Assembly: GCA_937904325.1 (NCBI GenBank)
Contig: CALGTK010000287.1
Span: forward strand, 1 to 34,272
Direction: 5' to 3'
Source of the DNA: an uncultured Planctomyces sp.
GTDB lineage: Bacteria; Planctomycetota; Planctomycetia; Planctomycetales; Planctomycetaceae
DNA length: 34,272 bases
In this document: positions 28,591-33,370 of the stretch, piece after piece
Numbering within the stretch: the stretch's first letter is position 1
Layout: each line of letters begins with the position of its first letter
Notes under the pieces: model-generated
The model's database searches: none
Told to the model about the DNA's origin: nothing
The model's input: only the letters and a program-made list of their open reading frames with translations
Position numbers and translations under genes: made by a program

Positions 28591-31548
28591 TCACTTCTGC
28601 GTCAGGAATACGTCGCTCTGAATGATGTTCCGAACCAAAGACTTGAGTTTGAAGTTTTCCGGCTCGGCTTTGGCGACGATCTCGTCAACAACAAGAGCGT
28701 CTGCCGGCGATAATTCGCGAGCGAGTGCGAAGCGGAGCAAGTGAGCGGTGAATGCCTTTGCAAATCGCTTTTCTTCTTTCACCAGAACTTCCTTGAAGTC
28801 GACGATGTCGGTGAAGTCGTGCCTCTTCAAAAATGTTCCACTGGCGTCGACCTCGCGATTGTTTTCGTACTTGTCGCGCCAGCGACCAGTGATGTCAAAG
28901 TTTTCGAGAGCGAAACCAAGCGGGTCAATCCGTGCGTGGCAACCGGCGCAGTCCGGACTCTCGCGATGCTTCGCAAACTTCTCTCGAATGGTCTGATTCT
29001 CAGGTCCCGATTCTTCGTCGAGTGGCGGAACGTCGTTCGGTGGTGGTGGCGGAGGATCATTGAATATGACCTCGATCATCCACGCGCCTCGGGCAATGGG
29101 AAGCGTGCGTTTGGGTGCCGAGGTCATGGTCAGGGTAGCAGCAGTGGTAATGATTCCACCATAGCGGGGGTCCCTGATGGGAACTCGTTTGAAGTTTCGC
29201 GATCGCACCTGTGAAATAAGCCGATTGTTGAACCGATTCTCAACTTCCTTGTTGATGTTAATTTTCTGTTTGGGATTTGGCCGTGGGAGCTTCTTCAGTT
29301 GCATTTCGACCTTCTCTCGGGCCTGAGTGAGCTTCGCTACTTCTATTTTCTCTTCAGCCGTCATTCCTTTAGTGAGTTCGCTGTCGGAAACCCAGACGTT
29401 TGAGGCGTCGGAAGAAGCAGCAACTTCTTTTGCCGATAATGCCCGGTCGTATAGACGCGCTTTATCAATCACGACAGATAAATATCGATTTCCAGCTGGC
29501 GGCAAGTGGCGCAGACCGAAGAGTACCGAGCTCCCTTCTTTGGCAAATGCGATGGCCCCCTTTCTATAGGATTCGCCGTACGGGCGGCTGTTGCGGTAGA
29601 GAGTGGTCATGCCATCTTCCTCGTAAACCATTACCAGGTGCAGCAATTCGTCAGCGGTTTCTTCTGGAGTACTTCCTGTAAAGTCCCGGGTTCGAACGTG
29701 GTTATTGCTGCCGGAGATCCAATGTTTGGGTTTTCGCTCGCCGTACACGATTGAATCGAAACCGCCTTGGCCCTGGATCGTCATTACGCCACCGCCGCGC
29801 TGCTTAATGCTTTTAAGCGAACACCAGACTTCCAGCGTTTTGGCTTTCAGTTCGATAGGCAACTTTGGACTTTCGAGATAAGCGCGATCGAGCTGGACGA
29901 ACCCATTGTCGAAAGAAACGTCTCCGTGAGCTGTCAGATGTAGAGACGAGACGGATGCTTTCAGATCTCCATTAAACTCCCAGGCAGCGAAGGGTTTCAG
30001 ATCGACAATCTGTTTGGGCTTGTCGCTGATCGCCTTGATTTTTGTCGTCAGCAGGCGTTCGCGAATAGATGCAGTCAACGATTTGTGTTTTTCCTCAATG
30101 TCTGCGACTTCTTTGGTAAGCCGGTCGCGAGTTTCCTCTCGGATACGGAGTTCCTCGACGACCAGCTCGCGAAACTCGTCCGATGGGGTGAGTTTTTCGG
30201 TGTACCACGTCTTCAGAAAATCACTCTGATAAGCAAACGTCGGCTTAATCAGATCAATCACTGGTCGGTCTTCGACGAATACTGCATCAAAAAGGAGCAG
30301 TGGTTCGAGAGCCATCTGGGCGCTCGCAGGAAAGCCCCCAGTCAAGCTGAACGCTGGATAAATTGCCGGATCGGGAGCAACGCCGAAGAGATTCTCAAGC
30401 TGCATCCATTGTGCTGGAAAGCTGTCTAGAAACCGCTCGATCTTCGGATCTGACATCATGCGATCGACCGTAAAGGCAAGTACTTCCGGCTTTGACAACT
30501 CACCAGATTCCGCCAGAGCAACGAGTTGATCGTCGGGGATGCTGCCCCACAGAAAGAACGACAGTCGGGATGCCAGTTCGTAAGCATCGTCGGCCGGTGC
30601 CTGAGAATCGTATCGGAAAAGAAACAGCGGCGAACACAGAATCGCCGACGCAACTTTCTTCATACTGGCGGTAAATGAGAGCCCTTGATCAAGCTTCGCC
30701 ACGGTGTACTGCGTGTATCGGTCCAGAGCGTCGAGCTCAACTGCTGAGCGAAAGGCTCGTTGCATCAAAGAGCCAAGCCGGCGCCTGACTTCTTTCTCGA
30801 TATCGGCATCTTTCGAGGGAGCACCAAAAAACGAATTCCAGATGCCGACGTTCTGAGGTTTAAAGTCAGGGCTATCGACGATGGAGAGACTCAATCGAAG
30901 ATACGCGTCCAGCAGTAACGGCGAGAGCGTGAGCTGATTCGCCTGATTATCAAATCCGTGAGCAGCTCGCAGGTCTTTTGGGTACGGCTGGACGTCCTCG
31001 AAGCCAGTGCTCGTCATCAATGTGTGGCACGACACCTGAACGGTATCCGGCATGACATTATTCCTGGAATGCAGGTAGTTAACGTGTCGGGCCATCAGTT
31101 TTTCGGTGAGTGGGAAGATGTCCTTGTTCAATCGGAACAAATCGCGAATTGCATTGTTGTACTGAAACCGGTTAAGCCGTCGGGGCTGCAGCGTGGTGGT
31201 AATTCCAATTGTCGCTTCTTTGCGCAAACGCTTAAGCGTGGCGAGAAGCTTAACGCGAACTGGCTCGCCTAGTTGTGGTTCATCTTCTGGCGGCATCGCA
31301 TCAGCGTCGATGACTGCAATCATCTGCTGAATCAATTCGGGAGACGCTCGGAGCTGATCCACCGCTGTAATCGCCTTGAGATTAACTTCGCCTTTGATCT
31401 TCTTTTCGCCGTGACACTTGATGCACTTCTCTATCAGCAGTGGCTTGAGAAATTGATCGAAGTCGTCGGCCTGGCAGGTATGGCCGAGGAAAAGGGTGCC
31501 GACTGCGACGAGCAATAGATTGCGTATTGGTTGATATCGGTCTGACAT
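28591..31548 (-). CDS. DUF1592-class planctomycete cytochrome c protein with inserted LamG domain
   Basis: A protein of about 985 residues. The frame extends to an ATG at 31575, but the start at 31548 has an excellent AAGGAG 7 nt upstream and gives a normal signal peptide (about 10-28). PSCyt1 has C42-I-K-C-H. A DUF1587-like block ('RRLNRFQYNNAIRDLFRL') and DUF1595/1592 ('LASRLSFFLWGSIPDDQLVA') follow. A coiled coil lies at about 470-515. A LamG jelly-roll (about 520-710; 'FAAWEFNGDLKASVSSLHL', 'VIDKARLYDRALSAKEV') splits the usual DUF1592/DUF1588 order. DUF1588 ('FNDPPPPPPNDVPPLDEE') with C867-A-G-C-H and DUF1585 close the protein. The reaction is unknown. It is probably co-transcribed with the DUF1552 gene upstream despite the scar between them. 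Confidence 0.92.
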   Translation of the reverse strand: MSDRYQPIRNLLLVAVGTLFLGHTCQADDFDQFLKPLLIEKCIKCHGEKKIKGEVNLKAITAVDQLRASPELIQQMIAVIDADAMPPEDEPQLGEPVRVKLLATLKRLRKEATIGITTTLQPRRLNRFQYNNAIRDLFRLNKDIFPLTEKLMARHVNYLHSRNNVMPDTVQVSCHTLMTSTGFEDVQPYPKDLRAAHGFDNQANQLTLSPLLLDAYLRLSLSIVDSPDFKPQNVGIWNSFFGAPSKDADIEKEVRRRLGSLMQRAFRSAVELDALDRYTQYTVAKLDQGLSFTASMKKVASAILCSPLFLFRYDSQAPADDAYELASRLSFFLWGSIPDDQLVALAESGELSKPEVLAFTVDRMMSDPKIERFLDSFPAQWMQLENLFGVAPDPAIYPAFSLTGGFPASAQMALEPLLLFDAVFVEDRPVIDLIKPTFAYQSDFLKTWYTEKLTPSDEFRELVVEELRIREETRDRLTKEVADIEEKHKSLTASIRERLLTTKIKAISDKPKQIVDLKPFAAWEFNGDLKASVSSLHLTAHGDVSFDNGFVQLDRAYLESPKLPIELKAKTLEVWCSLKSIKQRGGGVMTIQGQGGFDSIVYGERKPKHWISGSNNHVRTRDFTGSTPEETADELLHLVMVYEEDGMTTLYRNSRPYGESYRKGAIAFAKEGSSVLFGLRHLPPAGNRYLSVVIDKARLYDRALSAKEVAASSDASNVWVSDSELTKGMTAEEKIEVAKLTQAREKVEMQLKKLPRPNPKQKININKEVENRFNNRLISQVRSRNFKRVPIRDPRYGGIITTAATLTMTSAPKRTLPIARGAWMIEVIFNDPPPPPPNDVPPLDEESGPENQTIREKFAKHRESPDCAGCHARIDPLGFALENFDITGRWRDKYENNREVDASGTFLKRHDFTDIVDFKEVLVKEEKRFAKAFTAHLLRFALARELSPADALVVDEIVAKAEPENFKLKSLVRNIIQSDVFLTQK

Positions 31549-31555
31549 CCAGAAG

Positions 31556-31561
31556 CTCCTT
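31556..31561 (-). promoter_or_regulatory. Strong Shine-Dalgarno site deciding the 31548 start
   Basis: AAGGAG on the - strand sits 7 nt before the ATG at 31548 and immediately after the TAG (31564-31562) of the short cytochrome fragment. It favours 31548 over the upstream ATG at 31575 and would allow re-initiation by ribosomes finishing the fragment. Confidence 0.75.
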
Positions 31562-31726
31562 CTATTCCGGCCCATGGCAGCGGATGCAATACTTCTGAAA
31601 GAACGGTTCCAGCTTCGCTTTGGGCAACGGCGTCGCGCGGGAATCTTCGCCTGCGTTAACGCTGGGGAAAGCCATCGTCAGAACGACTGCGAGGACAGCT
31701 ATTCGTATTGGAAGTTGTGTCGTCAT
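31562..31726 (-). pseudogene. N-terminal fragment of another PSCyt1 cytochrome c protein
   Basis: From the ATG at 31726 the frame gives 54 residues: a signal peptide (about 1-24, 'IAVLAVVLTMAF', cut near VNAGE), then 'LEPFFQKYCIRCHGPE' with a full CxxCH heme site, then a TAG. That is exactly the first part of a planctomycete cytochrome c protein (DUF1549- or DUF1592-class, normally 800-1100 residues), cut off right after its heme motif. The product could be a tiny exported heme peptide, but a truncated gene is the simpler reading. It stops 13 bp before the next gene's start. Confidence 0.72.
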
Positions 31727-31760
31727 GGAAAATGAACTCGCATTTACGGGACGCTTGGAT

Positions 31761-32000
31761 TCATGGTTTGGTGTTGCGGTAAATCGCGCGAATCTCTTCA
31801 CCGGATAAGGCAGTGTTCCAGACAGTGAGCTCATCGATGCGACCGATGAAATTCCGGACACGGCGATGCGTGTTTCCAAGCGATTCCGTCCAGTTCCCAA
31901 TGTCCGCCAGGCCAATCTCAAAAACCTGGTCAAAGATCATGGTTTCCGACGAAACTTCACGCCCGTTGTAGAACTGCCGCGAATCGCCTGAGTGCGTCAT
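31761..32000 (-). pseudogene. C-terminal fragment of a LamG (FecR-type?) protein
   Basis: The frame (open from 32006, with ATGA overlapping the DUF1552 stop at 32000-31997) translates as the last strands of a LamG domain: 'DSRQFYNGREVSSE', 'EIGLADIGNWTESLG', 'RVRNFIGRIDELTVWNTALS', 'GEEIRAIYRN', then a stop. 'GRIDEL...ALS-EEI' is the standard LamG ending, and 'IGNW...R--R-F-GR-DE' is typical of the FecR-LamG proteins that planctomycetes place before cytochrome/DUF1501 genes. The N-terminal part is absent. I infer a fused scrap from such an operon. It could be translated through the ATGA overlap, but as a partial domain. Confidence 0.68.
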
Positions 32001-33370
32001 GTCCATAGCTGAGAGATCGTCCCGTCGCTATCTGCATAGGAGTCCGTTTCGACGCCCATAAGCTGAGCAATCGTCAGCCACATGTTTGAATTCAGCGTGC
32101 CACTTTTACATTGCACAAAACGGCCTTGCTTCACCTGGCCCTGAGACTTGCCGGCAACGACCAGCGGGAGGTCGAAATACTGATGTGTGGCTCCGTCACC
32201 CAGTCCCGCTCCGTAAGTGACCAGTGAATTATCGAGCAGCGTGCTGCCGTCGGCTTCCTTGATCTCTTTCATCCGTTCCAGAATGTAGGCGTACTGCTCC
32301 ATGTGGAAGATGTCGATCTTCTGTAGTTCCTTGTATCCGTCGCCCTTCTGGTTGTGCGTCATATTGTGGTGTTGCACAGGCTTGTCGAAGACGCCTTCGT
32401 ACATGAGGGGTGCGTCCCATCGTTCGGGGCCGACCATGAAAGTGCAAATATTGCTGATGCCCATCTGCATGGCCGCGAGCATGAGGTCGCCCATCAGTCT
32501 GATGTACAGTCGTCGCGGCAGTTCTGGATTTTTGGGTTTTTCGATACCAGTTTTCGCAACCATCTTCTTCAGCTTTTCGATGCGCAGTTCAATGTCGCGG
32601 ATCATGGTCATGAATTGATCCATGGTCGCTCGATCGTCGCGGCTGAGTTTTCGTGAAAGACTCTTCGCGTCCGCCAGCATCAGGTCGGTGACGTCCGCAA
32701 CGTGGTCCTGGTAGCTGCTCTTCATGAAGAGGCGATCGTACAGCTTCTGAGGATCGCGAATTGCGGGAGCAATCTTGTCTGGTCCGTACCACGAAATATT
32801 GTCGAAGTAGATGGATTCCTTCGGTGCCTTGTAACCGTTACAGCTGATCTCCAGCGTATTGAAAACGGTCTTGTGGCCGCCATGATCGCCAATGACCTGA
32901 TCAAGGCTCCGACCGTTCGGATACCGCAACCCCTTCAGACCCGCCTGCTCGGGTGAGACGCTCGTCAGGTAACACGAAGCTCCCTGGGCATGCACGTCCT
33001 GGCCATTCTTGTAAGTGCGATCCAGGCCGGTCACCAGCGTCACGTCGCCCGCATGCGGAGCCAGAGGCTGCATCGTCGACGTCAATTCCAGGTCGTAGAT
33101 GCCGGGCTTGTTCGGGATGCGTTTCTCCTTCTTGCTTTTGTCAGCGTTAAAACCACCGACGAAGCCTGGGAGCTCAGCCTCTTCTTCACCAGGAAAGAAG
33201 CAACGCCGTACGAGTCCGTTTGGAACGTACATCATCACCAGCTTCTTGTCTGGCACATTGGCGGATGGCTTCGCGGACTGCGCGATAGATGTCAGGAACG
33301 GCAGAGCCATTGCCGCGCCACCCGTCCTTAGAAACTTTCGTCGGTTCATGCCCGGGATATTTCCTGTCAT
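31997..33370 (-). CDS. Tat-exported DUF1552 protein
   Basis: A protein of about 457 residues. The open frame reaches a TTG at 33400, but the ATG at 33370 has AGGAAG about 5 nt upstream; a later ATG at 33349 (MNRRKFLR) is also possible. The twin-arginine motif NRRKFLRTGG and a hydrophobic run mark Tat export. Family blocks are 'DKKLVMMYVPNGLVRRCFFP', 'VTLVTGLDRTYKNGQDVHAQ', 'LMGDLMLAAMQMGISNICTF' and a terminal 'LTIAQLMGVETDSYADSDG'. The HXXSHH region reads 'VQHHNMTHNQKG', so the Ser is Thr and the last His is Asn. It lies 1 bp after the stop of the degraded PfkB gene and upstream of the DUF1592-class gene, the reverse of the gene order at 3437-7202. Confidence 0.92.
   Translation of the reverse strand: MTGNIPGMNRRKFLRTGGAAMALPFLTSIAQSAKPSANVPDKKLVMMYVPNGLVRRCFFPGEEEAELPGFVGGFNADKSKKEKRIPNKPGIYDLELTSTMQPLAPHAGDVTLVTGLDRTYKNGQDVHAQGASCYLTSVSPEQAGLKGLRYPNGRSLDQVIGDHGGHKTVFNTLEISCNGYKAPKESIYFDNISWYGPDKIAPAIRDPQKLYDRLFMKSSYQDHVADVTDLMLADAKSLSRKLSRDDRATMDQFMTMIRDIELRIEKLKKMVAKTGIEKPKNPELPRRLYIRLMGDLMLAAMQMGISNICTFMVGPERWDAPLMYEGVFDKPVQHHNMTHNQKGDGYKELQKIDIFHMEQYAYILERMKEIKEADGSTLLDNSLVTYGAGLGDGATHQYFDLPLVVAGKSQGQVKQGRFVQCKSGTLNSNMWLTIAQLMGVETDSYADSDGTISQLWT

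Follow-up and report, generated by a model that had tools for sequence, protein, structure and literature searches.

The DUF1552 and DUF1592-type genes of the analysed window, the whole 34,272-nt stretch that makes up contig C287 of a draft planctomycete genome (488 contigs totalling 7.97 Mb, completeness 99.87%), are separated by a spacer that is probably a recombination scar, in which a contiguous scrap of DNA, most likely without a function of its own, took the place of a short spacer. This scrap, of about 430 bp, would come from a pair of genes of another planctomycete operon, a FecR-LamG gene followed by a DUF1592-type cytochrome gene, and would run from the last part of the first donor gene into the beginning of the second.

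Organization of the locus

Both flanking genes were intact according to Pfam, and the DUF1592-type gene, which likely starts at an ATG preceded by AAGGAG, contained the PSCyt1, PSD3, PSD5, PSD4, internal LamG, PSCyt3 and PSD2 domains (Table 1). The initial annotation had placed a LamG tail and a cytochrome head between these two genes, and their coordinates and order were borne out. The TGA stop codon of the DUF1552 gene (31999-31997) overlaps an ATG in the frame of the LamG tail as ATGA (32000-31997), the first codons of that frame overlapping the end of the DUF1552 gene. The LamG tail ends at a natural stop codon (31763-31761), which is followed by a gap of 34 nt before the ATG of the head, and the TAG of the head (31564-31562) is separated from the DUF1592 ATG by 13 nt that include the AAGGAG. 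Tail and head share one strand, are each in frame and follow one another as they do in natural operons, with matches above chance. The internal LamG of the window DUF1592 protein occupies residues 565-719 of the 994-aa ORF (50.9 bits), between PSD4 and PSCyt3.

Table 1. Features of the DUF1552/DUF1592 locus in the window.
Feature	Positions	Strand	Basis
DUF1552 gene (PF07586, HXXSHH)	33400-31997	minus	Pfam, 221 bits
Spacer with insert between the DUF1552 and DUF1592 genes, 448 nt	31549-31996	minus	Codon positions
LamG tail (PF13385), C-terminal ~80 codons, FecR-LamG type	32006-31761	minus	ORF and Pfam
Cytochrome gene head of 54 codons, DUF1592 type, CIRCHGPE then TAG	31726-31562	minus	Homology
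Intact DUF1592-type gene with its own CIKCHG	31548-28591	minus	Pfam

No RNA families, promoters or terminators were found in positions 31400-32150. Repeats at the borders were limited to some of 9-12 nt and one 15-nt palindrome, all of which were taken as chance occurrences, and the number of viral contigs carrying the downstream junction was zero.

Identity of the two gene fragments

The LamG tail scored 27.9 bits against PF13385 (cut-off 27.6) and aligned with profile positions 88-150 of 151, that is, with the C-terminal part only; the first half of the profile, and more, is missing. No FecR domain (PF04773) stands upstream of it in the same gene, where DUF1552 is found instead. Its best protein match among 397 genomes of the class was the end of a FecR-LamG protein in G427 (47% identity, E 1.6e-15), too distant for this genome to be the donor. 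FecR-LamG C-termini were matched in 46/170 genomes of the family (E <= 0.001), and matches were found in 53/397 genomes of the class (E <= 1e-6), the own genome being counted in both sets. The matched frames were mostly of about 530-640 codons; the FecR part was confirmed by Pfam only in the protein of C470, another contig of the own genome, the other matches being named FecR-LamG by length and by eye.

The head has a start that resembles a signal peptide by eye, followed by the CxxCH motif, and matched the N-termini of DUF1592-type proteins (E 2.7e-7). It had been annotated as the head of a PSCyt1 protein; the CxxCH head and its length were upheld, whereas the fragment alone gave no Pfam match to PSCyt1. 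None of the PSD3, PSD5, PSD4, PSCyt3 and PSD2 domains lies behind it, since the TAG closes the frame right after CHGPE; this TAG may be a mutated donor codon, or the join may fall just there. Of the 29 non-self loci matched by the head, the 10 strongest were scanned with Pfam, which assigned eight to the DUF1587/DUF1592 type and two to the DUF1549 type; a motif check covering all 29 detected a DUF1587-like motif in 17, the others being without the motif or too short. Against the heads of the own genome and of the window, the best two matches were of the DUF1592 type, with weak scores (31.2 and 30.0 bits). Because eight of the 10 strongest matches were of the DUF1587/DUF1592 type, a FecR-LamG/DUF1592 pair appears, on sequence grounds, the likelier source of the scrap, and the same count lowers the candidacy of a mainly DUF1549/1553-type head.

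The same site in related genomes

Scanning of genome contigs recovered 356 loci with a DUF1552 relative, the best 80 of which (68-83% identity) were taken as orthologous. A DUF1592 gene directly followed DUF1552 in 78 of these 80 loci, the exceptions being L082, which reaches a contig end, and L119, where no DUF1592 match was found downstream. In the 78 loci the gap between the two genes ranged from -14 to 372 nt, with a median of 42 nt, and was shorter than 150 nt in 75. A FecR-type LamG tail was present in none of the 80 (E <= 1e-4).

Among the relatives found, G192 (the genome of L082) is the nearest, with a DUF1552 protein 83.5% identical to that of the window at the amino acid level. The end of its DUF1552 gene and its DUF1592 gene lie on another contig (C896), which presumably adjoins the first. 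Measured from the codons, the G192 spacer is 55 nt, in contrast with the 448 nt of the window, and the insert is absent from this orthologous site. Because DUF1592 follows directly in 78/80 loci, the LamG tail occurs in 0/80 and the G192 spacer is only 55 nt, the comparison supports the reading of the piece as a derived insert, foreign to the DUF1552/DUF1592 operon. The initial proposal that a piece of another operon recombined here is thus supported in essence, the piece resembling part of a FecR-LamG/cytochrome operon, and the suggested comparison of orthologous loci yielded mostly short spacers.

The 372-nt spacer, found in G015/G193, is unrelated; by eye, it contains a long inverted repeat in G015 (L024:1238-1410). 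In G031, no DUF1592 was seen by eye in the stretch behind DUF1552. Five genomes of the same genus seem to be without a DUF1552 ortholog, since their best DUF1552 matches were just 49-51% identical. No relative bearing the insert was found in the genomes searched.

FecR-LamG/cytochrome pairs and the search for a donor

A complete operon of the proposed donor type occurs on contig C470, where a FecR-LamG gene (PF04773, 31.5 bits; PF13385, 55.2 bits) stands directly ahead of a PSCyt1-PSD3-PSD5-PSD4-PSCyt3-PSD2 gene, whose first ATG comes after about 51 nt. Like the insert, this operon presents a LamG end, a short gap, a signal-like start and a CxxCH head; unlike the insert, it is complete (516 + 845 codons scanned), and its DNA sequence is not close; it is not the donor. 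Across the LamG-tail matches, the first downstream ORF had a CxxCH head in 24/50. The junction between LamG tail and cytochrome head is therefore a natural operon junction, and the deletion of a large middle part, invoked in the initial annotation, is not needed, the two fragments being neighbours in intact operons. By analogy with these operons, the scrap can have been contiguous in its donor, with only the outer parts missing.

The search for FecR in the own genome gave nine places, none of them on C287. On C253, C356, C470 and C27 (L233-L236), FecR-domain genes were observed immediately before genes of DUF1592-like or DUF1552/DUF1592-like type, Pfam having been run on C470 and C253 only; this suggests a recurrent FecR-led regulation of DUF1552/DUF1592-like pairs in the source genome. 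The same genome contained 149 PSCyt1 matches, a big pool of similar sequence for recombination.

The own genome contains a second LamG tail (C65:8299-8589, L242:1800-2090), which is about 97 residues long and shows 54.6% identity to the ends of FecR-LamG proteins. As in the insert, only the LamG C-terminus is left, directly ahead of a CxxCH gene, but here the cytochrome gene reads open through 962 codons and an in-frame stop interrupts the LamG tail, a decaying FecR-LamG remnant. Six short LamG ORFs from other genomes were fetched, five of which lay at contig ends; the remaining one, in a same-genus genome (G005:C200, L245:1665-2273), has a LamG domain but lacks an open FecR part, and may be a further truncated gene of the FecR-LamG kind.

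A DNA search found no second copy of the insert in the own assembly (all non-self matches had E >= 0.048), and the suggested search for an intact donor operon elsewhere in this genome thus came out negative. LamG-tail protein searches yielded no donor among 170 family, 397 class, 170 order and 392 phylum genomes, the order set being apparently the same as the family set, given its identical number. Since the assembly has no further copy, the donor is to be sought in another strain or species or in an operon that was lost.

Proposed origin and alternative explanations

In the proposed course of events, the scrap would have replaced an ancestral DUF1552-DUF1592 spacer of roughly 55 nt in one event. 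The upstream join would coincide with the stop codon of DUF1552 and the downstream one would lie between the CHGPE of the head and the ATG of DUF1592, which would leave both flanking genes whole. The capture was presumably non-homologous and the scrap would have arrived as one short piece. Pairing at the CHG heme region, put forward earlier, finds no support, because a CHG-CHG crossover would yield one hybrid head; the junction lies before the recipient ATG, and the recipient still has its complete head, with a signal-like start and, about 125 nt downstream, CIKCHG. Alternatively, the additional stretch of about 390 nt could be what remains of a bigger insert after later trimming. A full FecR-LamG/DUF1592 unit, or more, would then once have stood between the two genes and have been shortened by independent deletions at either end until only the gene boundary was left, a course for which there are parallels in the own genome, where FecR genes adjoin DUF1552/DUF1592 pairs (C253, C356) and where the decayed LamG tail before the open cytochrome gene of C65 indicates that loss of the FecR-LamG 5' part happens. 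We consider it unlikely, however, as it needs at least three events instead of one, and a FecR-type LamG was in the spacer of 0/80 orthologous loci. An assembly chimera would have to explain joins that both fall at gene ends and spare both genes, which is rare for a random mis-join, and no other copy of the segment was available in the assembly for mis-joining; although the assembly is a draft, the insert lies 2.3 kb from a contig end and no relative shows it, such an artefact seems most improbable.

The state of the two frames bears on the age of the insert and on a possible role. At four-fold sites, the Jukes-Cantor (JC) distance to G192 was 1.18 for DUF1552 and 1.39 for DUF1592, and despite this deep split both insert frames are free of stops. 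With a Poisson model that ignores indels, the probability that both frames lack nonsense mutations was 0.08 at 0.2 and 0.002 at 0.5 neutral substitutions per site. A neutral insert of almost the age of the split would hardly stay stop-free; hence the insert either clearly postdates the split from G192 or has been kept open. Open frames, together with the ATGA overlap at the DUF1552 end and the 13 nt, with an AAGGAG, that separate the head TAG from the DUF1592 ATG, would also be expected of real small genes or of a translational relay kept by selection. We regard this as quite improbable, given that the LamG tail covers profile positions 88-150 of 151 only, that orthologous loci manage without the insert and that it was seen in no relative. 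Retention of the scrap as a translational spacer made of gene debris, in which a stop/start relay would couple translation of DUF1592 to that of DUF1552 across the longer spacer, is very doubtful. A captured scrap, most likely functionless, remains our preferred reading.

Significance

The scar is a minor, ordinary feature. It resembles the gene remnants and failed transfers of prokaryotes, a subject of pseudogene surveys (e.g. PMC522871), in that recognisable short gene ends lie between intact genes and are missing from relatives; it differs from such remnants in that the scrap crosses a gene boundary, has retained a natural stop as well as a natural start, and has two frames that are still open. 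Among the titles and abstract openings covered, none on DUF1552/DUF1592 operon scars was found. The locus provides a clean example of how DUF1552/DUF1592-type planctomycete operons gain debris of related operons while the flanking genes are left unharmed, and a warning that, in such genomes, a short ORF of LamG or cytochrome type can be debris and not a gene.
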